From assembly GCF_038006205.1 (NCBI RefSeq), contig NZ_JBBOUU010000001.1:1490001-1554000 (forward strand): a stretch of 64,000 nt of DNA, in the 5' to 3' direction. The notes below the pieces were generated by a model that was given only the letters and a program-made list of their open reading frames with translations, was not told the origin of the DNA and did no database searches. The stretch comes from Solibacillus sp. FSL R7-0668 (GTDB lineage Bacteria > Bacillota > Bacilli > Bacillales_A > Planococcaceae). Positions 1,457 through 36,159 of the stretch are shown one piece after another; the stretch's first letter is position 1, and each line of letters starts with the position of its first letter. The position numbers were made by a program, and so were the translations under genes.

Positions 1457-1731
1457 AATTAAGAAAAGCGTTGATAAGGAAGAGTACGTAATACGGCGTT
1501 ATATAGAGAGCTTTTGATGGTGGAAATAAAGCAAACAACGTTTACCGAACATGGCCTTTGAGCAAAAGTACCGAAAACGGAGTAGGCTACTTTCGAGAGA
1601 TGCACTCGTTACAACAGCAGCAGTATGAACACGTACTGACTTGAGGCAAATAGTGTGAGCTATTTGTAAATTTAGGTGGTAACACGAATGATTCGTCCTA
1701 ATCGCATTATGCGGTTGGGGCGTTTTTTTTT
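1457..1731 (+). promoter_or_regulatory. T-box leader, methionine-specific
   Basis: The T-box sequence AGGTGGTAACACG lies at 1674-1686. It is followed by a GC-rich hairpin (arms about 1694-1707 and 1709-1722) and a U-run at 1723-1731, which is the terminator. Upstream is the stem I start (GAGAGC..., about 1506) and a specifier-loop context, gaacATGgcctttgagc, placing an ATG specifier at 1551-1553. ATG matches tRNA-Met and the downstream methionyl-tRNA synthetase. Uncharged tRNA-Met would stabilise the antiterminator and allow read-through; this is the known T-box mechanism. Confidence 0.9.
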
Positions 1732-25065: not shown

Positions 25066-25148
25066 CAATTCCTTTCAATTGTAGTATGAGCGGAATGAGG
25101 AGAAATCATTTAGGGAATGACATTTGGAAGTTATGATGATTTATGGAT

Positions 25149-25260
25149 ATTTGCAAATATATGTTGAATATCGCAAATATCTTCAAAATTTCGCAAATAA
25201 AATCTAAAAGTCGCAAATATCCCCGAGATTTCGCAAATAAAAATTAAAAGTCGCAAATAT
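25149..25260 (-). repeat. 20-bp-period ATTTGCGA array A (six cores)
   Basis: On the plus strand TCGCAAAT starts at 25171, 25191, 25211, 25231 and 25251, and the variant TTGCAAAT at 25151: six cores at exactly 20 bp. The intervening 10-mers differ from one another. Read on the minus strand, core order and most spacers match array B at 35407-35516. No coding frame or promoter explains it. Confidence 0.85.
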
Positions 25261-25356
25261 ATTCGCACATGTTTCGGTGATGATTCAATTACTTAGTGAA
25301 TATATGGTAAAATTTCTCTGGAGAGTGGAATTTAATAACTCAGGAGGATGAAACCT

Positions 25357-25761
25357 ATGCAGTATAAAACTTGGAACGGTGCATCTGCTATTGTCATTAA
25401 GGATAATTGTGCGCTAATGGTACGTACAAAAAAATCGACTAGTTGGAGCGTGCCTTCTGGTGGAGTAGAAGTTGGCGAAACAGCAAAAGAAGCCTGTGTC
25501 CGAGAAATTTTAGAAGAAACAGGTTATGAAGCTAAGGTCGTAAAAGAATTACATACTAAAAAGACAATTATCCAAGATTATTTGGTGACAACTCAGTACT
25601 TCTTATGCGAAATTACGGGTGGTAACATTCAATTTCATGATCCTGATGAAGAAATTGAAGAAATTTCGTGGAAAGATCGCAACGAAATTTCAAAACTCAA
25701 TCATACTTATCCCGAAGACCAAGAAATTATTGAACAATTTTTATTAAATATACTTTCTTGA
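25357..25761 (+). CDS. NUDIX hydrolase
   Basis: 134 aa. The Nudix box is complete: GVEVGETAKEACVREILEETGY (Gx5Ex7REUxEExGU). It hydrolyses a nucleoside diphosphate linked to another moiety; substrate unknown. ATG 25357 is 9 bp after AGGAGG (25342-25347); ATG 25348 is too close. It is the first gene beyond array A, on the same strand as the methyltransferase that follows. Confidence 0.9.
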   Translation: MQYKTWNGASAIVIKDNCALMVRTKKSTSWSVPSGGVEVGETAKEACVREILEETGYEAKVVKELHTKKTIIQDYLVTTQYFLCEITGGNIQFHDPDEEIEEISWKDRNEISKLNHTYPEDQEIIEQFLLNILS

Positions 25762-25823
25762 AAAGGTACCTGAATTATGAGCATTTCACTGACTAATCTA
25801 TTTCATAAAAAGGGGTTCAACTG

Positions 25824-26576
25824 ATGTTTAACAATGAATTTAGCGATAATTTATCCAAATATGCAAATCCAGGTGAATATGATAAGACGTATAAAGGCTA
25901 CACAGCAGACTTAGCGTTTATCGAGGCTCATTTAGCAGGGAATCCTCAAGCAATTATTGAGCTTGCTTGTGGGACAGGACGCTTAGCCATACCTCTAGCC
26001 AAGCAAGGACACACTGTATATGGTGTCGATATTGATGCAGGCATGTTGAAATTTGCACAAGAAAAGGCTACTGCTGAAAATCTTAACATTCATTTAAGTT
26101 TGCAAGATTGTACACAATTAAATTTACCAATTCAATCCAATTTTATATACATGACGGGGAATTCCTTTCAACACTTTTTAACAAATGAGAGCCAAGATGC
26201 ACTTTTCGATGCAGTTAAAAAACACTTGAACCCAAATGGCGAATTTATTTTTGATACAAGAAATCCGATTTTACATGAACTTGTAGAGGGTGATTGTTCA
26301 GAAGAAGCTATTGTTCAACAGGGGGAACTAACGAAGGTCATTAGTCGGGAAATCTATAATCCGTTGACCCAAATTCTAGAATGTACGTCAACATATATAA
26401 CTTCCAAAAATGAATATCAAGATCATATTAATCTTCGCTATACATATCCATTGGAGCTAAAACGACTATTGCACCAGCATGGATTCGAGCTGATCGCATT
26501 ATATGGTTCTTGGAAAAAGGAAGTATTTGATGAAAAGAGTGTTTCAATGGTTGTTCATGCGCAATTAAAGTCATAG
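25824..26576 (+). CDS. Class I SAM-dependent methyltransferase
   Basis: 250 aa. Motif I ELACGTGRLAIPLA (about residues 42-55), motif II YGVDIDAGML and the motif IV region FIYMTGNSFQHFL place it among the small-molecule methyltransferases. The substrate cannot be told. AAAAGGGG precedes ATG 25824. The C-terminal GSWKKEVFDEKSVSMVVHA stretch is common in the Methyltransf_25/YcgJ-like group. Confidence 0.88.
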   Translation: MFNNEFSDNLSKYANPGEYDKTYKGYTADLAFIEAHLAGNPQAIIELACGTGRLAIPLAKQGHTVYGVDIDAGMLKFAQEKATAENLNIHLSLQDCTQLNLPIQSNFIYMTGNSFQHFLTNESQDALFDAVKKHLNPNGEFIFDTRNPILHELVEGDCSEEAIVQQGELTKVISREIYNPLTQILECTSTYITSKNEYQDHINLRYTYPLELKRLLHQHGFELIALYGSWKKEVFDEKSVSMVVHAQLKS

Positions 26577-26591
26577 AAATGGTCCCATATT

Positions 26592-26629
26592 AAAAAACGA
26601 AATTGCGTATAATCGGCAATTTCGTTTTT
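26592..26629. terminator. Bidirectional terminator
   Basis: AAAAACGAAATTGC pairs with GCAATTTCGTTTTT (26616-26629) between convergent genes. Confidence 0.88.
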
Positions 26630-26655
26630 GTTATGGTCAAATCGTCAGTAAATCA

Positions 26656-27303
26656 CTACTTTAAAAATTTCCCGAATAATCCTTTAGCTTGTTTTTCGGC
26701 TGGTTGCTCCGTAGCTGTTGTTAGTTCCTGCTGGGCGACGTTGAGTTTGTTTAAAACATTCATAATGGCGCTGTTTTGTTGTTCGACACGATCGAGCTGA
26801 CGTTGATGCGCGGCATTTGGTTCGTTTGCCTGTTCTAAAATATGCTGCATCATCGCGCCAAGCTGTTGCTTTAACGTGTAGTTTTGGTCGATTAGCAGCT
26901 CATTTTGTGTACGCTGTTCCTCGATTAGCGTTAAGAGCTGCTGGTTTTGCTGCTCAATCCCATGAACATGTGTGGCAAGGAGCTGCATGGAGTTGGATAA
27001 ATCTTCGAATTGTGAAACATGTGGTGGAGCAGGAATGATCGTGTGCTGTAAAAAGTCAGCTGGCTCAAAAGTCGGCTCTGTTACCATTTGTGCCGCTTCT
27101 TTTAACTTGTAGCCACGCTCTTTATTTAGTGTTAAAAAGGCACGAAGCAAAATAAAATCTTCCTCTGAAAATTGGCGATGCATGCGGCTATTGCGGCGTA
27201 CCTTGTAGCCATGGTCTTCTAAAATTGTCATGTAATGTTGTAACGATGCTTTGCTAATGCCAAGTTGCTCAGCAATTGCACCAGTCGCATAAATCGCGGG
27301 CAT
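26656..27303 (-). CDS. MerR-like HTH DNA-binding protein with coiled-coil (DUF3967-like)
   Basis: 215 aa. An N-terminal winged HTH (YATGAIAEQLGISKASLQHYMTILEDHGY and a wing RRNSRMHRQFSEEDF) is followed by a Gln-rich coiled-coil from about residue 100 to 190 and a short basic tail KGLFGKFLK. The layout resembles RacA/plasmid-type DUF3967 proteins that bind DNA and multimerise. The tail could be a membrane- or partner-targeting signal, which is inference. Single gene, role unknown. Confidence 0.75.
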   Translation of the reverse strand: MPAIYATGAIAEQLGISKASLQHYMTILEDHGYKVRRNSRMHRQFSEEDFILLRAFLTLNKERGYKLKEAAQMVTEPTFEPADFLQHTIIPAPPHVSQFEDLSNSMQLLATHVHGIEQQNQQLLTLIEEQRTQNELLIDQNYTLKQQLGAMMQHILEQANEPNAAHQRQLDRVEQQNSAIMNVLNKLNVAQQELTTATEQPAEKQAKGLFGKFLK

Positions 27304-27590
27304 AGTAAAAACTCCTTAAATATCAAAAAAATAATATATTCCACTATAATTATACGCATAAAGTCATGTAGGTGTGAAGGGAAAGGTCGAATGGTTTTCT
27401 ATAGGGGTAGATTTGAATAAAAGATTGCTCATTTTTTGAAAGTATGTTACTCCATAATGGCCCGATTATTGTATAATCCACGGCATCAAATTCGTGCATT
27501 TACAAGGTTTAGCACAGCAAAGTTTCTAAATAATGGAGGGGATAACGAGGCTATGTAGAATATTATTAAGGTAGGAAAAGGAGTAATTAA

Positions 27591-27833
27591 ATGAGTAAAC
27601 GTGGAAGTGGTGTTGCTTTTATAGCAATAGCTGCATTTTAATTTTCAGCAAAATACACTAGTGCAGCAATCTTTGGTTCTGGTGTTTTAAGTTGGGACGA
27701 AGAATTATTTAATGCAATGTTAAGCTACATAGGCATTCCTTTAAGCATGTCTAGTATGATTGCTTTAATAATAGGTGTAGGATACATAGCTTGGGGAGAA
27801 TATGAAGAATTCAAAATAAAAAGCAGTGATTGA
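27591..27833 (+). pseudogene. Small membrane protein gene with in-frame stop
   Basis: ATG 27591 follows AAAAGGAG. The frame reads MSKRGSGVAFIAIAAF, then TAA at 27639-27641, then continues open for 63 codons (FSAKYTSAAIFGSGVLSWDEE..., with a hydrophobic helix MIALIIGVGYIAWG) to a natural TGA at 27831. A single-base change from a sense codon would explain it. Family not recognised. Confidence 0.65.
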
Positions 27834-27873
27834 GGATTGATACCCATTTGCAATGTTAAGGTGATAAATGCAT

Positions 27874-27889
27874 CTAAATCCCGCTTTGG
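27874..27889. repeat. Hairpin motif CTAAA-N6-TTTGG
   Basis: CTAAA-TCCCGC-TTTGG, one G-U pair. It is one of five related small hairpins between 27.8 and 35.8 kb. Confidence 0.4.
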
Positions 27890-27905
27890 AAAGGGGAGAG
27901 TTGCT

Positions 27906-28142
27906 TTGTTAAGGGTTTTGCAAATTCTATTTTCAATTATTACTTTAGCTTTTGCAGGGTATGGTCTATTCACAAAGGATTTTCAATTTCAAGCATATAT
28001 GATTTTGTTCTTAGCATTCACAATGCTCGTTGTAGGGCTGCAAGAATTCAAAAGAAATAATAAAATTATAGGCTGGCTGCTATTGGGGGTATTTGCATTT
28101 TCAATATTCGTAGCTATCCAAAGTTTTATGTTGAATAACTAA
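27906..28142 (+). CDS. Small membrane protein, DUF3953-like
   Basis: 78 aa with three predicted membrane segments (residues 4-22, 29-47, 55-75) and a short loop QEFKRNNK, matching the DUF3953/YczI type. TTG 27906 lies 7 bp after GGGGAG; the longer frame from 27837 overlaps the preceding pseudogene end. Function unknown. Confidence 0.72.
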   Translation: MLRVLQILFSIITLAFAGYGLFTKDFQFQAYMILFLAFTMLVVGLQEFKRNNKIIGWLLLGVFAFSIFVAIQSFMLNN

Positions 28143-28275
28143 TACATAAAAATATACCTAAATAACCTAATGGTAGCTACCGTTCGTTTTTATGGAATCA
28201 GGTATACAAAGAAGTGATTAATAATTATAAAAGAGAACACAAATCGATTAAAAAGTAATTAAAGGAGATATTCGA

Positions 28276-28842
28276 TTGAAATTAGCAGAGAAAAAATTCG
28301 AATGTAATACAGAAACAGAAAGATTAATTATACGACCGTTAAAAAATGTAGACTATGAAAATTGGTTGAAGGAATTTCAGAATCGCCTTCCATCTCAATA
28401 TCACCACGATCAAGGAAAAATAGATATGAGCGAATGTACATTAGAATGGTTTGAAAACCTATTAAACAAACATCAGGAATTAGCACGTACAGATGCTGCT
28501 TACATATTTGGGATATTTAGCAAAACTGAAGGTACACATTTAGGTATGGTTGATTTTTCAACCTTAGCAAGAGATGACTTTCAATGGGGGAGAATTGGAT
28601 ATACCATTCATAATCAGTATTGGAGAAACGGTTACGGGAAAGAAGCGGTAAACGCAGCACTTACGATAGCTTTTGAACAGTTAACATTTCATCGTATTGA
28701 AGCTCATATTAATATTGATAATTTGCCCTCTATTAAGTTAATTGAAAGCGTAGGAATGGAATTTGAATGCATCCGTAAAGCTTTTATATACGAAAATGAT
28801 GAATGGACTGATAATTTAGTTTATTATAAGAATTCAATTTAA
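28276..28842 (+). CDS. GNAT acetyltransferase, RimJ/RimL type
   Basis: 188 aa. Acetyl-CoA binding segments are IGYTIHNQYWRNGYGKEAVNAAL and the family motif IEAHINIDNLPSIKLIESVGMEFE, typical of ribosomal-protein/aminoglycoside-type GNATs. The acceptor substrate is unknown. AAAGGAG precedes TTG 28276. It belongs to a run of small, same-strand, functionally unrelated genes. Confidence 0.85.
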   Translation: MKLAEKKFECNTETERLIIRPLKNVDYENWLKEFQNRLPSQYHHDQGKIDMSECTLEWFENLLNKHQELARTDAAYIFGIFSKTEGTHLGMVDFSTLARDDFQWGRIGYTIHNQYWRNGYGKEAVNAALTIAFEQLTFHRIEAHINIDNLPSIKLIESVGMEFECIRKAFIYENDEWTDNLVYYKNSI

Positions 28843-28935
28843 TCTTTATCAACAGTGGAGCAATATTCAAAAATGGAACTTCAAAGAGCAAAGTTCTCCT
28901 TTTATTTGAAGTTGAAAATATAGGAGGTGACAGCC

Positions 28936-29208
28936 TTGCAACGTAAACGGAGTGTAGGAATGCTTTCTTTTATTAGTTTGATTATCGGACTTATTTTCTT
29001 GGGCGTCTATATTTTTACTGGTAATTCTTTGATAAATGACAACATAACAATGCTACTTGGTTTTATCCTTCTGGCACTTTCTTTTGTTTTATCATTGTTC
29101 AGCAAAAAGGACAAATTCGGAAGGATATCACTATATGGTTTTCCGATACTTGTGGTCATTTATTTATTGTTTTTTGGAGTGATGTCTTTATTTTGGAATA
29201 TACCCTAA
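28936..29208 (+). CDS. Small hydrophobic membrane protein, 90 aa
   Basis: Three membrane segments separated by short polar loops (a SKKDKFGR loop precedes the last). TTG 28936 is 8 bp after TAGGAGGTGA (28921-28930); the GTG at 28927 is within the ribosome binding site. Family not recognised. Confidence 0.65.
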   Translation: MQRKRSVGMLSFISLIIGLIFLGVYIFTGNSLINDNITMLLGFILLALSFVLSLFSKKDKFGRISLYGFPILVVIYLLFFGVMSLFWNIP

Positions 29209-29321
29209 TAATTCAATTACACAAACGGACGCGATTCTTGAATAAGCTTAATTTTTATTCTTCAAATAATTGGAGATCTAATACAACTAGAACTAATAAT
29301 GGGTACAAATTAAATCCAAAT

Positions 29322-29349
29322 AACGTTCCTATACATATAGGGAACGTTC
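29322..29349. repeat. Inverted repeat in the 29.2-29.5 kb gap
   Basis: AACGTTCC and GGGAACGTT flank a 10-bp AT loop. It has no T-run; it could be a weak terminator or an operator. The rest of the 310-bp gap shows no gene. Confidence 0.4.
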
Positions 29350-29405
29350 AATCTAACAACTAAGATTTTCAACCATTCTTAGCTGCTTTTTATTTCATTA
29401 GGTTA

Positions 29406-29421
29406 CCAAACACCGCTTTGG
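29406..29421. repeat. Hairpin motif CCAAA-N6-TTTGG
   Basis: Perfect CCAAA-CACCGC-TTTGG, about 100 bp before the HIT gene. Related to copies at 27874, 33202, 33909 and 35755. Confidence 0.45.
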
Positions 29422-29520
29422 GAAGGGTATTTATAATGTTTTGGAAAGTATGCAAAAATTTATGGCGATTATTATAAAATAAAAGTAAGAAGAAATTTAT
29501 GATAAAAAGGGGAGCTAAAA

Positions 29521-30000
29521 TTGTATTCTCATAAACCACAGGATTACGAGTGTCCATTTTGTCGAATTGTATCAGGCAAAGAAAAACAAAATAAGGGTAC
29601 AAAGCAAAAAGATATTATCTATCAAAATAAAGACGTAACAGCATTTATTGCGAGTAAATGGTGGCCAAATAATAAAGGGCATGTTTTAGTGGTTCCAAAC
29701 GAACATTTTGAAAATATATTTGAACTTCCAGCAGATATAGCTGCAGAGATACACCGTATAGCTCAATTAATAGCTTTTGCAATGAAAGATACATACAACT
29801 GTGATGGAATCTCGACTCGTCAACATAATGAACCTGCTGGTAACCAAGATGTATGGCACTATTATCTTCATGTGTACCCAAGATATAACGGAGACAATCT
29901 TTATATGACTAAGGGAGAATATACAGAACCAAATGAACGTCCCTTCTACGCTGAAAAGCTACGTTCATGGATAAATGAAAATTCACAAAAATATTTTTAA
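29521..30000 (+). CDS. HIT family protein, nucleophile His replaced
   Basis: 159 aa. A CPFC pair at residues 11-14 and the GHVLVVPNEHFENIFELP core place it in the Hint/Ap4A-hydrolase-like HIT family. The H-x-H-x-H-x-x signature reads H113-Y-Y115-L-H117: the middle histidine, the nucleophile in characterised HIT hydrolases, is tyrosine (codon TAT). A CAT/CAC to TAT change would do this. The protein may be inactive or have altered chemistry. TTG 29521 follows GGGGAG. Confidence 0.82.
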   Translation: MYSHKPQDYECPFCRIVSGKEKQNKGTKQKDIIYQNKDVTAFIASKWWPNNKGHVLVVPNEHFENIFELPADIAAEIHRIAQLIAFAMKDTYNCDGISTRQHNEPAGNQDVWHYYLHVYPRYNGDNLYMTKGEYTEPNERPFYAEKLRSWINENSQKYF

Positions 30001-30078
30001 GCAAATCTATAAAATATTATTTGCGTTGCATTAAAATTTTAGTTAGTTGTCAAAAGAGACCAAATACCTACCTCAATC

Positions 30079-30228
30079 TTATTTCGGAATTTTTTGAATA
30101 AGCAATCTTCCGTCATTGGAAAAAAGCTCATATGGACCCGTACGCCTGCTTTTGTTTTCCGAAACGTCGCCTAAGGGGATTTGCTCAGACACATCGTAGA
30201 AGAATTGTTTACAAGTAATTTCCCAATA
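30079..30228 (-). pseudogene. C-terminal coding remnant, unknown protein
   Basis: An open frame without a start reads EITCKQFFYDVSEQIPLGDV...ELFSNDGRLLIQKIPK and ends in TAA at 30079-30081. It looks like the tail of a real protein and follows transposase debris on the same strand. Family not recognised. Confidence 0.35.
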
Positions 30229-30253
30229 TCACGAAGAAATGGTGCGTTCCTTT

Positions 30254-30530
30254 TCATTTCGCCTGAATGGAAACAGCGAGATGGCGAAAGACTTTTTCAA
30301 AAATTCCCGGCGTCAGACAAGATTGTTTACGCGAAAGCTGCGACGAACTAATGGCATCCCTTTGAATAGATGTTTGAAGTTTATCTGTATCTTTAAGCTG
30401 TTTCGCTAACTTATAAAACGATTTTTTATTCAAATGTGCAATGGTAAAAAGCTGAAGAAATTTGTACACAGTCAACTTTTTAATGTAAGCGTCGAAATTT
30501 GAAACGTTCGCAATTTTTAAATCTATGTAA
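30254..30530 (-). mobile_element. IS4-type transposase N-terminal remnant
   Basis: The frame contains DAYIKKLTVYKFLQLFTIAHLN, KLAKQLKDTDKLQ and RDAISSSQLSRKQ...PGIFEKVFRHL, the N-terminal pattern of IS4-family transposases of Bacillales. It stops after about 90 residues, and no catalytic DDE region or inverted repeats are present. A dead fragment. Confidence 0.65.
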
Positions 30531-30658
30531 TATGGATTTAATGCTATATTAAGCTAATTGAATCGAAATAAAAGTCCTAATGAAGTTTGCGTCAAAAGGG
30601 CGCAACTTTTAATAGAGACATTCGTATGCTTAGAATTAACTAATGCAATCCATAATTA

Positions 30659-31384
30659 TCAGATTAAATCTCTTTTGTGGAAAATAATAATTCCAACACT
30701 ATACGACACTGCACAAAAAATATTTAATACAATGACCGATGAAAAGGAATAATGTAACTGATTAAATCCGTTTGTGACAACATAAAACGGCATCGATTCC
30801 ATTACATTTTTCATTTCTACTGAGCCTCGATCCATTGCCTGAGCAGCCAATTCTCCAATAAAAATAAATGCAATATAATTACAAATTATTAAATAAAATT
30901 TATTTAAAAACAAGGCAGATAAAAGAACTGAAAATGCATATAAGCTCCCCATATATAAACCATATACAAAAATTAGTTGAATAAAGTCGGAGAATAATTG
31001 TGTAACATCCAACCTCGAAGTAGACATAAGTTCAATTGACCCACCAATCACGACATTTAGCAATGCCAAGGTAACACACAAGCAAAGTAAAAATTCAGCC
31101 TTCATTTGAAGGATTTTTATACGAGAACTTGTGCCTGTATAAATGGATTTAGATGTGCCTAAATGAAAATCAGATGTAATCGATATACTAGCTAGATAAA
31201 TAAAATAAAGCTGGGTTAAAAATAGCGATAATCCAAAATTACCCACGAGTAAATCGGGCTTACCTACATTTAGGCGTATATATATAATATTATCTAACAC
31301 AGTAAATACGATAAAAATAGCAAGAAATGCGTACATCGATTTACTATGTAATTTCTTTAACTCTAATGTCCAAATATTTCGCAT
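30659..31384 (-). CDS. ABC-2 type permease subunit
   Basis: 241 aa with six hydrophobic segments and no ATPase motif. It is the third gene of a BcrA/LanFEG-type ABC exporter, 12 bp after its sister permease. In such systems the two permeases and the ATPase protect against bacitracin or lantibiotics; the substrate here is unknown. ATG 31384 is preceded by AAAGGTGG. Confidence 0.82.
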   Translation of the reverse strand: MRNIWTLELKKLHSKSMYAFLAIFIVFTVLDNIIYIRLNVGKPDLLVGNFGLSLFLTQLYFIYLASISITSDFHLGTSKSIYTGTSSRIKILQMKAEFLLCLCVTLALLNVVIGGSIELMSTSRLDVTQLFSDFIQLIFVYGLYMGSLYAFSVLLSALFLNKFYLIICNYIAFIFIGELAAQAMDRGSVEMKNVMESMPFYVVTNGFNQLHYSFSSVIVLNIFCAVSYSVGIIIFHKRDLI

Positions 31385-31396
31385 GAGTAACCACCT

Positions 31397-32131
31397 TTAT
31401 TGAATTTCCTTTTTAAAAAGAAGTATTACTGTTCCAACACCTATAAACAAAGTAGTCATCAGTAAAATAAAACTATCCACTATTGTAATAGAGCTATACT
31501 GCAAGCCTTGTGCCGCAATATTGATTGGGTTATGTGTTATAAATTTTTTTACATAATTTTGTGGAAACAATAATAAAATAAAACCTCTCAAATACTTTTC
31601 AACAATGAAAACAGTCATTACGGTAATCATTGTCGCCATTCGACTATAGGTTAACAGCGTAATGAAAAAAGCCAATATACAGATAAATAAACCGACAATC
31701 ACATACACAACAATCGTTTGTACAAAATTCTGCAGTAGCACATCCATTGAAAATATACGTTCGTGATACATCAGCAAACTATTGGCACTAAATCGATGGA
31801 CAACACTTACCAATGCGTAAAATATAAGCATCGAAAAAAATTTGCTGCTTAAGATGATTCGCCTTGGATACGGGCCTGTGAAAAGAATACGCGTTGTTTT
31901 AAATGTATACTCTTTCGATAGTGTTACAGCCGGCAGTAAAATGAGGACATAAAATAAAAGGTCATGAATTAACTGATAAAAAAATTCAGTGGTATATGAA
32001 GTTTCACTATCTAGCGTAAACGCAAACATACCTAGTGTATAAATACTAATGATTCCTAGTGCTATCCATAATTCTTTTGTCTTCACGACATATTTAAAAT
32101 CAACCAATGTTAACCGAAATAAATTAGCCAA
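31397..32131 (-). CDS. ABC-2 type permease subunit
   Basis: 244 aa with six membrane segments and a conserved-looking ATRILFTGPYPRRIILSSKF loop typical of lantibiotic-immunity permeases (the actual stretch starts TFKTTRILFTGPYPRR). TTG 32131 overlaps the stop of the ATPase gene by 8 bp and follows GGAGG at 8-bp spacing, indicating coupled translation. Confidence 0.82.
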   Translation of the reverse strand: MANLFRLTLVDFKYVVKTKELWIALGIISIYTLGMFAFTLDSETSYTTEFFYQLIHDLLFYVLILLPAVTLSKEYTFKTTRILFTGPYPRRIILSSKFFSMLIFYALVSVVHRFSANSLLMYHERIFSMDVLLQNFVQTIVVYVIVGLFICILAFFITLLTYSRMATMITVMTVFIVEKYLRGFILLLFPQNYVKKFITHNPINIAAQGLQYSSITIVDSFILLMTTLFIGVGTVILLFKKEIQ

Positions 32132-33017
32132 TTTTATTGCCTCCTAATAAATCGAAAAACTTCGCTTCTAAATTTTTCTCTACCGGATAGACGGTAGAAA
32201 TGCGCCCTCCCATTTTCACCACTTGAATAATTAATTCTTCCATATCGTGAGCTTTCGATTCAAAATGGATGGCATTTGTCGTTGTATCTTTTATGGATAC
32301 ATGTAACTGCAGGAGTATTTGTTTCAACTTATACGTATCTGTTGATTCCATTTTATAAGAGCATATTTCCGTGATAGATGAGTCCTTTAAGTCCAAAATT
32401 TCAAGTAATCGACCATTTTGAAGAAAGGCAACTCTATCACAAATGATCTCAATCTCTGATAAAATATGACTCGAAATTAGGACCGAAATTTGAAGTTTCT
32501 CGACAACCGTTTTAATGATATTGCGAATTTCCACGACACCTTCTGGATCGAGTCCATTTGTTGGCTCATCTAATATTAATAGCTGTGGGTCATTGAGTAA
32601 TGCTTGAGCTAAGCCTAAACGTTGTTTCATTCCAAGCGAGTAATTTTTCACTTTTTTATGAATAAATCCATCCATATTTAATAGTTCAATAATGTCTAGA
32701 ACTTCTTTTTTGTTATAGCCTCCTGAAAACTCAGCAAAGTAACGCAAATTCTCAATGCCTGATAAATTTGGATAAAAACTTGGATTTTCAATGACACATC
32801 CTACAAAGCGCTTATTCGTAGCATTCGTCTGAATAGAAACATTCCCTTTGTATTTGCGTGTAATGCCGACGATAATTTTCATTAATGTAGTCTTACCTGC
32901 ACCATTTGGACCAACTAAACCTAGCACTTCACCTTTTTTAATCGCTAAATTAATGTGTTGAAGTGCAGCTTTGCCTTTAAAAATTTTTGTAACATCCTGC
33001 ATTTCTAAAACATTCAT
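32124..33017 (-). CDS. ABC transporter ATP-binding protein (BcrA/lantibiotic-immunity type)
   Basis: 297 aa. Walker A GPNGAGKTT, signature YSLGMKQRLGLAQALL, Walker B LLILDEPTNGLDPEG and H-loop ISSHIL are intact, and a C-terminal ~80-aa domain is typical of BcrA-like ATPases. ATG 33017 follows AAGGGAGTG; a longer frame to 33053 has no ribosome binding site. It leads the three-gene exporter operon. No two-component system is adjacent, but a repeated TTGTCAC motif lies upstream. Confidence 0.88.
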   Translation of the reverse strand: MNVLEMQDVTKIFKGKAALQHINLAIKKGEVLGLVGPNGAGKTTLMKIIVGITRKYKGNVSIQTNATNKRFVGCVIENPSFYPNLSGIENLRYFAEFSGGYNKKEVLDIIELLNMDGFIHKKVKNYSLGMKQRLGLAQALLNDPQLLILDEPTNGLDPEGVVEIRNIIKTVVEKLQISVLISSHILSEIEIICDRVAFLQNGRLLEILDLKDSSITEICSYKMESTDTYKLKQILLQLHVSIKDTTTNAIHFESKAHDMEELIIQVVKMGGRISTVYPVEKNLEAKFFDLLGGNKIG

Positions 33018-33094
33018 TATAAACACTCCCTTATTCCTTACACTGCTTACCATTTATTGTAGACAAGCAATTAAAGGAAATCGTTTGATATATG

Positions 33095-33129
33095 TGACAA
33101 AACTCCATTCGTAAGTGACAATTTTGTCA
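33095..33129 (-). promoter_or_regulatory. Possible operator of the ABC exporter operon
   Basis: On the minus strand TTGTCAC recurs after 21 bp, and TGACAATTTTGTCA (33116-33129) is a perfect palindrome. The site is 80-110 bp upstream of the ATPase start. Confidence 0.45.
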
Positions 33130-33201
33130 TATTAAGGTATTTTTGAATGAATAGAGATGTAATTCGTTCTGAATATTTTAAATTTAAATATTAGAACATT
33201 C

Positions 33202-33221
33202 TCCAACACCGCTTTGGGAGT
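33202..33221. repeat. Hairpin motif CTCCAA-N6-TTTGGGAG
   Basis: Loop CACCGC is identical to that at 29411. The stem carries one bulged base. Confidence 0.45.
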
Positions 33222-33280
33222 GTTTGAAAGGAATTTTAAAAACTAAATCGAATGTAAATAATTATTATTGGGGGTGCCAT

Positions 33281-33712
33281 ATGAAAAAATGGATTATTAT
33301 CGTATTTTGTTTTTTATTAGTAGCATGTGATAACAATGCAGCTCTTACAGCTGAAACGCCAGAAAAAGCATTACTATTACTTGAATCTCAAAAGGATTAC
33401 CCAAGAATTGTAAAATTATTAAATTCGATTGAAATAAATGAGGAGCAAGTAATTTATGTTTTTGAAGGTGAAATAAATAATCAATCAGAATGGTTTGTTG
33501 CAAATATAGAAAAAGTAGGAGAGTCTAAATGGCTTGTTAAGGAGTCCATAAATGTTGGATTACCAAACAGTGAGGCTAAAAAATATTCTGCTGGAACAAA
33601 TACTTTTACCGCAGGGGTTAGTAATGTTCCATTAAAAAAACTAGACGATAGAAAAGTTGTTACTATTCCTGACCATGAATATTTTGTTTGGATTGAGTTA
33701 AATAAAGATTAG
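33281..33712 (+). CDS. Putative lipoprotein, 143 aa
   Basis: Lipobox LLVAC (residues 12-16) ends a short signal peptide, so the protein is probably membrane-anchored outside the cell. The mature part (ALLLLESQKDYPRIVKLLNS, a beta-rich middle, HEYFVWIELNKD at the end) matches no family I know. ATG 33281 follows GGGGGTG. It stands alone. Confidence 0.7.
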   Translation: MKKWIIIVFCFLLVACDNNAALTAETPEKALLLLESQKDYPRIVKLLNSIEINEEQVIYVFEGEINNQSEWFVANIEKVGESKWLVKESINVGLPNSEAKKYSAGTNTFTAGVSNVPLKKLDDRKVVTIPDHEYFVWIELNKD

Positions 33713-33742
33713 AAACTATTTGAATTGGTTTGGGTCTTTTAA

Positions 33743-33877
33743 TGCTTATACAGTCAAAATGTTGATATTTACAATCTGATAAACATTTTTACGATTTTCA
33801 CGTTGTTAGGTATTGTAATTTCAATCCTTTCATTCATCTTTTTATGGTTGTCAAAAGAGAAAAGTCATTTGTGCTGA
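33743..33877 (+). pseudogene. Small membrane protein remnant without start
   Basis: A frame bounded by stops reads VDIYNLINIFTIFTLLGIVISI followed by LSFIFLWLSKEKSHLC. It encodes one clear membrane helix and a basic tail, but has no start codon or ribosome binding site. Probably a 5'-truncated gene. Confidence 0.35.
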
Positions 33878-33908
33878 ATTAAAATTCATTACCATTCAAA
33901 ATAAGGTT

Positions 33909-33928
33909 CCCAAATGGCACTTTGTGGG
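33909..33928. repeat. Hairpin motif CCCAAA-N6-TTTGtGGG
   Basis: Loop TGGCAC; the right arm carries a bulge. Related to the other CCAAA-N6-TTTGG motifs of this region. Confidence 0.4.
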
Positions 33929-34011
33929 CGTTGACCAAGCAATTAAAATAAATAAAAATCACTGTCTAATTCATATGAATCGATATTGATTCTAAAGATG
34001 GAGGAATCGTT

Positions 34012-34449
34012 CTGAAAAAAATATGGCTAGTACCTATTTATATAATCTTCATTGTCATGATGTTTACAGTTTATCAACAACAACGAGTAATTAACGATTA
34101 TCGTAGTTTACTTTTTGAAGAATTGGAAAAGTTAAATACTCAATTTGAGCGTTTTTTGGTTTTTCATAAGGAATCAGAAAAGTATGATGAAAAAGAACGC
34201 AATGAAAAGCTTCAACAATTAAGAACCACTTTTTCAGATTTTTTTTACTATACCGGGGACATTTTAAAAGTAGAGTCTGAAATACGAGAAAACTATTTGA
34301 TTACCTATCAACAGACGAAATTTGACCTTTCTAAACTTCTAGATAGCTATATAGCTGCAGCAACAGCAGAAGAACGTAATAGAATTTATAAAGAAATAAA
34401 TGAACTTTATAGTGTTTACAATGAATTCCTTGATTCTTCTGAAGTGTAA
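34012..34449 (+). CDS. Hypothetical membrane-anchored protein, apparent CTG start
   Basis: 145 aa: an N-terminal membrane segment (KKIWLVPIYIIFIVMMFTVY) followed by a charged, helical, coiled-coil-like domain. There is no ATG, GTG or TTG in frame between an upstream stop and ATG 34057. The only good ribosome binding site, GGAGGA (34000-34005), sits 6 bp before CTG 34012. Starting at 34057 would cut the membrane anchor and leave no ribosome binding site. Family not recognised. Confidence 0.65.
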   Translation: MKKIWLVPIYIIFIVMMFTVYQQQRVINDYRSLLFEELEKLNTQFERFLVFHKESEKYDEKERNEKLQQLRTTFSDFFYYTGDILKVESEIRENYLITYQQTKFDLSKLLDSYIAAATAEERNRIYKEINELYSVYNEFLDSSEV

Positions 34450-34805
34450 TTAATTAATCATTTTGAATAAAAATTTCATACAACTCTATAACTAATAATA
34501 TTTCCAAATTAAAGTTTGGAAACATACTTAAAAGTCACAATCGCTGATTTGACAATGTTTGTGGCTTTTCTGGTGGAACATTTTTTATATAGCTTTTTAT
34601 ACAAATGGCACAAACCATTGTTATGGTTGCATTTAAACTTGCTAGGCTTGCTCAATGGCTTGCATAAAACATTGTATAACCTTTTTTTTATTGTCGACGC
34701 AATCCCATAAAAATGTTATTTCACAATACCGATTAATTATTGAATAAGTAATTTCAGTTTTTTTAAGCGTTATTCAACGACCACAATAACTGTCGTTGGT
34801 TCCAT
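34450..34805. other. Intergenic stretch, no gene supported
   Basis: About 350 bp of AT-rich DNA. A 64-codon plus-strand frame (34516-34710) has no ribosome binding site and a skewed Leu-rich composition; I do not accept it. Nothing else is recognisable. Confidence 0.5.
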
Positions 34806-34991
34806 CTACTTCACTAAGCCAGCTGCATAAAATGGACCGCGCATTGCTGATTGATTACTTTTTGAGCTCAAAAAGGCTTTTAACAGGACACGTTGCTCGT
34901 ATAAATAGTTATAAATTTCAATTGCAATGGGTATTTGGGGCATCTGGCTTTTCACAATCGAAAATATGTCGTTAAAAGATACTTCTAAAAT
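34806..34991 (-). pseudogene. TetR-family regulator, C-terminal remnant
   Basis: A startless frame reads VSFNDIFSIVKSQMPQIPIA, then EIYNYLYEQRVLLKAFLSSKS and a MRGPFYAAGLVK end. The IYNYLYEQRVLLKAFL pattern is that of TetR C-terminal ligand domains of the YhgE-associated kind. The HTH and all upstream sequence are gone. It is divergent from a YhgE remnant. Confidence 0.55.
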
Positions 34992-35064
34992 TTAGAAGCT
35001 ATATAATCGACAATATGAGAGAATCTGTCTACGATGAATACAAATATGCGCACCCGAAATTTAG

Positions 35065-35319
35065 AGGGCTTTGCGGCACAAAAAATTATTTGGCGCACCA
35101 TTATTGTCATTCGCACCTGAAATGTTATGGGATTTTTATCATAATTGGGTGTACTCATGGCTGCCAATGCCCTTTATGGTCGATGGGTTACGTGAAATCT
35201 TCTTCTTCGGTACTGGTGTGACATGGGGTAATACACAAGTACTTGTTTGGATTATGATTGTCAGTATCATTGTGATTGTATTATCCGCATTAATTCCGAA
35301 AAAACAGGTGGAAGAATAA
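35065..35319 (+). pseudogene. YhgE/Pip-domain membrane protein, C-terminal remnant
   Basis: The frame opens after a TAG at 35062 and reads LFGAPLLSFAPEML...MPFMVDGLREIFFFGTG, then a last membrane helix (IMIVSIIVIVLSALIP). These are the C-terminal features of YhgE/Pip proteins, which are about 700-900 aa when complete. About 90% of the gene is missing. A terminator follows. Confidence 0.6.
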
Positions 35320-35330
35320 GTTGAATGGAA

Positions 35331-35358
35331 GCACCGAGTTCCGCGCTCGGTGTTTTTT
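35331..35358 (+). terminator. Terminator after the YhgE remnant
   Basis: CACCGAG (35332-35338) pairs with CTCGGTG (35346-35352), followed by TTTTTT. Confidence 0.88.
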
Positions 35359-35406
35359 GTGACTGGGGGATGATTTTGTATTTTATTTGGACGGGTGAGC
35401 AGGGAT

Positions 35407-35516
35407 ATATTTGCGACTTTTTGATTTTATTTGCGAAATTCTCGGGATATTTGCGATTTTAAAAGTTTATTTGCGAAAATATGAAGATATTTGCGATATC
35501 CCACATATATTTGCGA
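35407..35516 (+). repeat. 20-bp-period ATTTGCGA array B (six cores)
   Basis: ATTTGCGA starts at 35409, 35429, 35449, 35469, 35489 and 35509, exactly 20 bp apart. The flanking dinucleotide alternates AT/TT. Core order and spacers (for example AATTCTCGGG, ATATGAAG, CCACAT) match the reverse complement of array A. Located between the YhgE remnant and a small secreted-protein gene. Confidence 0.87.
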
Positions 35517-35754
35517 ATCCCCAAAAATCCCCATTATTTTCCCGATTTGAATTCACTTTTGACTAGAACGGCACGCCGTCCCTGAATTAGGGTGATACAC
35601 CTAAATTATGGTACAATTTAAAAAGAGCTGAATTGTCGGTTATTCTATTATTGATACGAAAAATCCGCTATCTAGCAGTGTGAACGAAATTTATCAGTCA
35701 GGAAACGCATCATCCTTTGGGCCAAATTATAGCGTGGTTCTAAACTTACATATC

Positions 35755-35779
35755 TTCAAATGGCACAACAGGGCTTTGA
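35755..35779. repeat. Degenerate TTCAAA...CTTTGA hairpin
   Basis: TTCAAA-TGGCAC... pairs with CTTTGA at 35774-35779; TGGCAC is shared with the copy at 33909. The loop is longer than in the other copies. Confidence 0.3.
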
Positions 35780-35820
35780 GAGAATTGGTCTTGGAAATAA
35801 TCATTTAAGGTGGTGTTTAA

Positions 35821-36159
35821 TTGAAAAAAATATCTCTAGTGATCATCGTTGCTGTTGTGTTCGGATTTTTCTATGTTTATAAAACGCCTGTCATTAGTAC
35901 ACAAGCAGCGTTAATTCATGCAGAAAAATATCTTTTAAATCCGCCAGAAGAGTGGGGAGATTCTATTATTTTTAATGGGCTAGAGGGGATTCCAGAAGAA
36001 AATATACGCGTGAATCTTTCGCAACAACACGGGTTTTGGCATGAATTAACGAATAGCATGCAATGGGAAGTGACGATAAAATCTCCAGAAAATGAATCTA
36101 CTGTCATCATGGATGCACACACAGGTGAGTTTATTGAAATCATAGGGGCGTTTAGTTAA
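35821..36159 (+). CDS. Small exported/anchored protein, PepSY-like tail
   Basis: 112 aa. An N-terminal hydrophobic signal or anchor (SLVIIVAVVFGFFYVY) precedes a short domain ending WEVTIKSPENESTVIMDAHTGEFIEI, which has the look of a PepSY-type repeat (DAxTGEFI). Function unknown. TTG 35821 follows AAGGTGGTG. Confidence 0.68.
   Translation: MKKISLVIIVAVVFGFFYVYKTPVISTQAALIHAEKYLLNPPEEWGDSIIFNGLEGIPEENIRVNLSQQHGFWHELTNSMQWEVTIKSPENESTVIMDAHTGEFIEIIGAFS

Follow-up and report, generated by a model that had tools for sequence, protein, structure and literature searches.

Phased arrays of an eight-base word as copies of a dispersed repeat in Solibacillus sp. FSL R7-0668

Two arrays and their repeat family

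Two inverted rows of an eight-base word lie some 10 kb apart in the 64,000-nucleotide stretch of the Solibacillus sp. FSL R7-0668 chromosome analysed here (the window), and they raise the question of whether they form a unit that brackets the DNA between them, as a first-pass annotation had it, and what a word repeated in this way might do. In this study, we show that a short dispersed repeat accounts for arrays A and B, which are two among its several dozen copies. Their features are as follows.

25128 to 25270, minus strand: whole element at array A by sequence model (G000:C1:1515128-1515270), 3' tail on the low-coordinate side; E 1.6e-32, with A among the ten copies used to build the model
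25151 to 25258, minus strand: array A, six words (five exact ATTTGCGA and one ATTTGCAA) in exact steps of 20 bp, separated by five 12-nt spacers; exact words at plus-strand coordinates 25171, 25191, 25211, 25231 and 25251, the ATTTGCAA variant at 25151
35395 to 35540, plus strand: whole element at array B by sequence model (G000:C1:1525395-1525540), 3' tail included; E 3.6e-35, B being another of the ten copies
35409 to 35516, plus strand: array B, exact ATTTGCGA at all six positions (word starts 35409, 35429, 35449, 35469, 35489 and 35509), in exact steps of 20 bp, separated by five 12-nt spacers

The six-word arrays with an exact 20-bp period, as first described, are thus real, with the one variant word in A. 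Exact pairs of words separated by 12 nucleotides occur nine times in the window and were absent from 100 shuffles, and Tandem Repeats Finder reports a 40-bp period at both arrays and a 20-bp one at A as well. The spacers of A, read on the minus strand, and of B come in the same order, as had been noticed; the alternation of AT and TT ahead of each word extends over five of the six units and breaks at the last, the dinucleotides being AT, TT, AT, TT, AT, AT in both arrays. The description of a word the size of a protein site, spaced by two helical turns, is also supported. The other strand of A and B reads TCGCAAAT. The words are direct repeats, which removes the earlier suggestion of a palindromic repeat. 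We agree that the arrays are not a CRISPR, given words of only 8 bp instead of long identical repeats and spacers that resemble each other from locus to locus (50 to 66.5% by position) rather than unique, and that A and B are apparently not coding repeats, since no ORF of at least 60 aa overlaps either one.

The chromosome as a whole carries 84 exact pairs of words with the 20-bp step, lying in 26 places by our own grouping of exact pairs, against none for a reversed-pattern control, so that the octamers are more periodic genome-wide than chance; the sequence model gives 45 matches at E<1e-4. The element, apparently non-coding, measures about 145 bp and consists of six words, five position-specific spacers and a conserved 3' tail. 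Between ten six-word copies the words are 98.8% identical, a figure inflated by the selection of these copies for intact words, and the spacers 58.0%, where 34.8% is expected at random. Differing spacers of the family are only 44-53% alike, and the words are therefore not kept alike by whole-unit copying. The step is 20 bp in 100 of 108 cases, 21 in seven and 19 in one. Weaker copies carry decayed or different words.

The arrays are found in convergent, divergent and tandem gene settings, and because all three occur they are not a promoter feature. Twelve of 27 arrays have no ORF of at least 60 aa, and at the other 15 a mechanical ORF of 64-195 aa overlaps the array, though the longest of these ORFs (195 aa) touches its array only at the edge; when the longest ORFs are kept first, the 27 arrays are intergenic but for a single overlap, involving a 77-aa ORF, and a single contact at an edge. 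A step of 20 bp is not divisible by three.

The DNA between arrays A and B

The idea of A and B as a matched inverted pair, acting as transposon ends or recombination sites of the 10-kb interval, draws on their inverted orientation and on arms of 135 nt that are 83% complementary. The relatives G002 and G015 contradict it. In both genomes the stretches that hold A and B are absent separately, and the MerR-like gene that lies between the arrays (window 26656-27303) is conserved. There, the MerR-like gene stands close to a UvrA-like gene (named by eye) and to the one at 36.67 kb; in G002 a GNAT gene is also part of this group. A and B therefore belong to two separate insertions. With 45 model matches in addition, the view of A and B as one unit around 10 kb is not supported; the accessory nature of their surroundings is borne out. 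Near neighbours are also common in the family: 14 pairs of elements are no more than 10 kb apart (mean expected 5.0, maximum 16 in 1,000 placements). With single copies by the dozen in the chromosome, a backbone gene inside the interval and no recombinase domain in 17 ORFs, we regard the matched pair as having practically no chance of being right. Transposon ends are rejected on the same ground, there being no paired ends around a single insert, and an invertible segment between A and B is ruled out by the dispersed copies and by the relatives' layout.

Among the 17 ORFs chosen in and beside the interval, Pfam found none with a transposase, relaxase, Rep or Par domain. The interval had been called rich in orphan and broken genes; this is right in part, as six of the 17 have no Pfam match, but genes of NUDIX, methyltransferase, GNAT, HIT, ABC ATPase and MazG-like type can be recognised.

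Possible roles of the phased words

It seems somewhat more probable than its opposite that the dispersed elements of about 145 bp are phased sites for a predicted sequence-specific protein that binds them cooperatively and organises or marks the chromosome. On one and the same face of the helix the 8-bp word would recur every two turns, six times in all; a putative protein would bind this asymmetric word and line up cooperatively along the array, with all copies pointing one way, and the resulting complex would organise or mark the chromosome. The protein, its cooperative binding and the role of the arrays are all predictions from the layout of the DNA. The conservation of words over spacers, the strict step, the dispersal, the varied gene settings, the recurrence of ATTTGCGA arrays in other Bacillales genera and the existence of sister families with other words are consistent with this reading. 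Pointing the other way are the weaker copies with decayed or different words, the inflation of word identity by the choice of intact copies, the 15 arrays that overlap a mechanical ORF and the fact that sister genomes carry, and live with, few such elements.

A non-autonomous mobile repeat, in which enzymes encoded elsewhere copy the unit into further intergenic sites, is in our opinion unlikely. Its words would serve copying and not the host, and it would be compatible with protein binding. The 45 dispersed model matches, the conserved 3' tail and the placement of A and B within accessory stretches fit such a repeat, as do nine sites whose flanks align to G002 or G015 with no counterpart element at E up to 1 (insertion joints were aligned with G002 at eight sites, and at L033 with both G002 and G015) and one nearly clean empty site, L032. 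However, no terminal inverted repeats and no enzyme were found, the words of G032 stand in long tandem arrays and not in unit copies, and the spacers of the copies are too different for a recent burst. Nor was a target duplication demonstrated: the intergenic DNA is too diverged at most sites, and L032, the sole site aligned well enough, shows no clear one. We give little credence to a neutral minisatellite or to intrinsically curved DNA, that is, A/T-rich blocks every two turns without a specific reader. Tandem growth in G032, the same array having six words there and 17 in Metasolibacillus sp., and the unit consensus, TTTATTT every 20 bp, speak for this reading; against it, the word is conserved letter by letter and not just in its A/T versus G/C class, and the spacers of dispersed copies diverge. 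It is very improbable that the arrays act as transcribed RNA, as a sponge or antisense, an idea raised in the available text of PMC8161180 mainly for 52-nt repeats. Array B folds no better than shuffled sequence on either strand (z-scores -0.31 and -0.02), and Rfam at gathering thresholds gives no match at the arrays; a structured RNA was rejected on these two results. The arrays also keep no constant side relative to genes, and strict helical spacing is a trait of DNA rather than of RNA.

Some plasmid iterons and par centromere repeats have steps of about 20-22 bp. Their protein sites recur in direct orientation about two turns apart, which makes them a model for the cooperative binding of a protein to phased sites. 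The present elements differ in having dozens of chromosomal copies and no Rep or Par domain among the 17 ORFs; a plasmid collection gave no match to the arrays. REP and BIME sequences are short dispersed bacterial repeats with many copies per genome and a palindromic unit. Our elements are equally short, dispersed and numerous, but their words are direct and in strict phase, with no palindrome or stable fold (array B). KOPS and SRS-type sequences are oriented octamers. They resemble the asymmetric octamer seen here, and ATTTGCGA arrays elsewhere lean to one strand by GC skew; unlike them, the words are clustered in strict phase and not scattered singly, and there is no significant bias in this genome and none for related words.

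Related words in other genomes and the 20-21 nt repeat class

Outside this genome, 49 of 56 ATTTGCGA arrays lie on the C-rich strand, presumably the lagging strand. The corresponding counts here are 17/26 and 28/45, neither significant. Related words lie on the C-rich strand in 17/30 (p 0.585) and 15/21 cases, and a general replication-strand rule was rejected on the first of these counts.

Within its genus, a three-word search found the near-intact ATTTGCGA family only in this genome, and ATTTGCGA arrays with the same step occur in several other Bacillales genera, B. infantis included. This genome also has a second family with its own word, ACGTGCGA, and variants of it; steps of 21, 21, 20, 20 and 21 are common to L219, L220 and the final six units of L232. 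Among 20 weaker matches there are at least two word types besides ATTTGCGA. ATGAGCG is the word in three genomes of another genus, and G002 elements show ATGTGCG-type words. A wholesale switch to ATGTGCG in sister species was discarded, as the exact 20-bp ATGTGCG pair occurs once in 16 genomes of the genus. The pattern AT-NN-GCG fails as a family-wide frame, matching 54 of 261 genomes where its reversed control matches 26 by our count, often as strongly; some of its matches (L180, L191) resemble coding sequence. A rule of TT two positions after the word does not hold across genera.

Non-coding tandem repeats of 20-21 nt with a short conserved signal have been described in Bacillus (Subirana and Messeguer 2021, PMC8161180), and the elements at A and B belong to this class. 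The two share a constant 20-21 nt step, a mostly non-coding location and several families of the same length per genome, and the short signal, TCGCGG in B. weihaiensis (Table 2) and TCGCAAAT here, has TCGC in common; 12 repeats of 20-21 nt are given there for B. infantis. Unlike in the class as presented in that paper, most elements of this genome have a fixed form of six words in about 145 bp, with position-specific spacers and a tail, and are dispersed over the chromosome, and whereas the authors stress species specificity and no sequence conservation, we find the same word and step in several genera. A search of the paper for strand or orientation gave no statement on how the repeats are oriented. 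Added here are the fixed six-word dispersal, the sister families within one genome and the ATTTGCGA strand bias outside it. A literature search, largely outside subscription journals, found no paper on the ATTTGCGA word, the available parts of PMC8161180 and PMC6749651 included.

It is conceivable, though we hold it to be quite improbable, that these families make up a "word and reader" system, in which a fast-evolving putative protein reads rows of an asymmetric, two-turn-spaced word in many Bacillales and assembles directionally, each family or lineage keeping its own word and the ATTTGCGA type assembling against the replication fork. The related words without strand bias make this less likely. 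If it were true, word and reader would evolve together, with ATTTGCGA and ACGTGCGA here and ATGAGCG in another genus. The function of the 20-21 nt class is without test in the available text of PMC8161180, and the uniform six-word elements with diverged spacers lend themselves as a compact bait, about 110 bp long, for finding the protein, with a scrambled word and an altered step as controls. Should the ATTTGCGA strand bias be confirmed in closed genomes, this type would be linked to replication or chromosome handling.

Arrays A and B and their copies on the chromosome

The first-pass annotation had described two inverted arrays (A and B) of the 8-bp word ATTTGCGA at a 20-bp step, with spacers in the same order in both. 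The word positions confirm the two arrays, as do nine exact word pairs separated by 12 nt in the window against 0 in 100 shuffles, and the shared spacer order is borne out by spacer comparison. A lone octamer has an expected count of ~1.35 per strand, so the signal lies in the spacing. The features concerned, together with two side observations (a leader and an accessory stretch), are the following.

1462-1703, plus strand: T-box leader (Rfam RF00230, 108.5 bits)
25151-25258, minus strand: array A, five exact ATTTGCGA and one ATTTGCAA
26656-27303: MerR-like gene, between the array-A stretch and the array-B stretch
28927-36159: accessory stretch encoding a HIT protein and an ABC transporter set, alongside several ORFs that lack a Pfam match
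35409, 35429, 35449, 35469, 35489 and 35509: array B, six exact ATTTGCGA

The whole-genome search for 20-bp-spaced words that the annotation had also proposed returned 84 exact pairs on the chromosome contig (48 forward, 36 reverse), falling by our grouping into 26 places, against none on either strand for the reversed-pattern control. R1, a sequence model derived from ten six-word copies including arrays A and B, gave 66 matches at E<=0.1 and 45 at E<1e-4 after merging one split match. Element pairs less than 10 kb apart numbered 14, against a mean of 5.0 and a maximum of 16 in 1,000 uniform placements.

The annotation had further held that A and B bracket a 10-kb accessory region, and this did not survive comparison with the sister genomes G002 and G015. 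In both, three genes lie within ~3.5 kb: one that is UvrA-like (named by eye), the MerR-like gene and the one at 36.67 kb; in G002 a GNAT gene sits between the last two. The array-A stretch (~24.3-26.6 kb) and the array-B stretch (~28.8-36.7 kb in G002) are absent separately from these genomes, and some genes of these stretches have relatives at other places there. This separate absence, together with the dozens of copies on the chromosome, indicates that the bracketing is a coincidence.

Anatomy of the element and related word families

The element runs from a loose 5' edge through six words, set 20 bp apart by five 12-nt spacers, to a tail like ATnCCCAAAAATCCCCATTATTTT. Among the ten six-word copies, against 34.8% expected at random, identity was 98.8% for the words (inflated, as copies were picked for intact words), 58.0% for the spacers (50.0 to 66.5% by position), 53.8% for the 30-nt 3' flank and 32.3% for the 30-nt 5' flank; non-corresponding spacers of the element are 44-53% alike. 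Word steps in the window's genome (G000) were 20 bp in 100 cases, 21 bp in 7 and 19 bp in 1. Twelve of 27 arrays, A and B among these, are free of overlap with ORFs of >=60 aa; each of the other 15 overlaps a mechanical ORF (64-195 aa), the 195-aa ORF being touched at its edge only. Convergent, divergent and tandem gene settings all occur around the arrays.

R1 matches are fewer in G002 (7) and G015 (13), where elements include words such as ATGTGCGA at steps of 20 and 21 bp. No R1 counterpart was found at E<=1 in the fetched G002 or G015 DNA at nine flank-aligned sites (L031-L037, L053, L054), the flanks of L054 lying on two different G002 stretches and the DNA between those of L031 and L035 being otherwise rearranged; L032 is the only nearly clean empty site among eight aligned sites.

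Among 20 weaker R1 matches fetched from G000, six (L219, L220, L221, L222, L227, L232) form a second element family with the words ACGTGCGA/GCGTGCGA/ATGTGCGG at mixed 20/21-bp steps. L219, L220 and the final six units of L232 have in common the step pattern 21,21,20,20,21 and resemble one another in spacers and tail. L233 carries words like ATGATCGA/ATGCTCGA, and with L228 it possibly represents a third family of such words. The chains in these weaker matches were scored with a preference for AT-NN-GCG, so that the register may shift in poor copies.

Distribution and strand bias

Of the 261 family genomes, 4 carry ATTTGCGA three times in succession (G000 and three members of genus g18), as do 2 of the 398 class genomes (G000 and G032); R1 has matches in 62/261 family genomes (E<=1e-5, stricter filters). 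In a scan of named genomes, 52 stretches came up, of which 46 bear Bacillales labels (including Bacillus infantis, Robertmurraya, Cytobacillus, Gottfriedia, Halobacillus and Metasolibacillus), four cyanobacterial, one from Prevotellaceae and one from a goat-jejunum bacterium. The 20-bp arrays of Nostoc, Mojavia and Tolypothrix (L114, L121, L124) combine the word ATTTGCGA with spacers like GTCAGAAACTTA, and are perhaps of independent origin. The viral contigs searched gave no match to the exact three-word pattern, and a plasmid collection none to array B or to one G032 array at E<=1e-5.

Tandem arrays in G032 reach 51 words, or 40 by a stricter chain. By their leading spacers, G032:C1:743646 (6 words) and G115:C3:43798 (17 words) are the same array, and thus unit number varies. 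Outside the imposed word, T is the commonest letter directly before it in 8/9 locus groups and at unit position 10 in 7/9. Three phased AT-NN-GCG words (e.g. ATGAGCG in G199, G217 and G236) occur in 54/261 family genomes, the reversed control also matching in 26 by our count. These three genomes, which belong to a different genus within the family, have rows of ATGAGCG/ATGGGCG at 20-bp steps (L195-L214), with as many as 19 pattern matches in a single G217 array and 294 three-word matches in G236.

Local GC skew (<=8 kb each side, less in 8-kb named stretches) served as proxy for replication direction, the leading strand of these bacteria being the G-rich one. The C-rich strand carried ATTTGCGA in 66/82 arrays from 14 genomes (G000 17/26, G032 8/8, the rest 41/48). 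Outside G000 the count was 49/56 (p 7e-9); for G000 alone p was 0.17, and its R1 matches gave 28/45 by hand count (p 0.14). The arrays are not independent, at least 5/6 from Metasolibacillus sp. being orthologues of G032 arrays by shared flank letters; with these six removed, 43/50 remain on the C-rich strand outside G000. Per genome, the C-rich strand had the majority in 11, the opposite in one and a tie in two (11/12, p 0.006). Neighbouring gene direction fails to explain the bias, since, among the 73/82 arrays with usable neighbours, 28/34 between convergent or divergent genes and 5/5 between tandem genes on the presumed lagging strand were on the C-rich strand. Related words gave 17/30 (p 0.585, 1.5-kb flanks), and their clusters in three genomes 15/21 (p 0.078, two inside ORFs); the bias is therefore a property of the sampled ATTTGCGA arrays and may not extend to the whole repeat class. 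The GC skew of G000 changes sign between ~1.79 and 1.97 Mb, and a dif-like site at 2.378 Mb (G000:C1:2377665-2377692, 3 mismatches to the consensus) lies ~0.4-0.6 Mb from this switch; a rearrangement near the terminus is possible.

Class and mechanism

For the 20-21 nt repeats of Bacillus, the published account proposes that proteins polymerise on the DNA, or that the repeats have roles as RNA (PMC8161180). The RNA fold of array B was no better than that of shuffled sequence on either strand. The present elements resemble those repeats in their step, in keeping a short signal conserved and in forming more than one family in a genome, but differ in being fixed six-word units, dispersed and with a tail; they are a variant of the 20-21 nt repeats (PMC8161180). 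Putative phased protein binding is the mechanism with most support. In addition, the elements have likely spread by some copying mechanism, and phased protein binding and dispersal by copying are mutually compatible.
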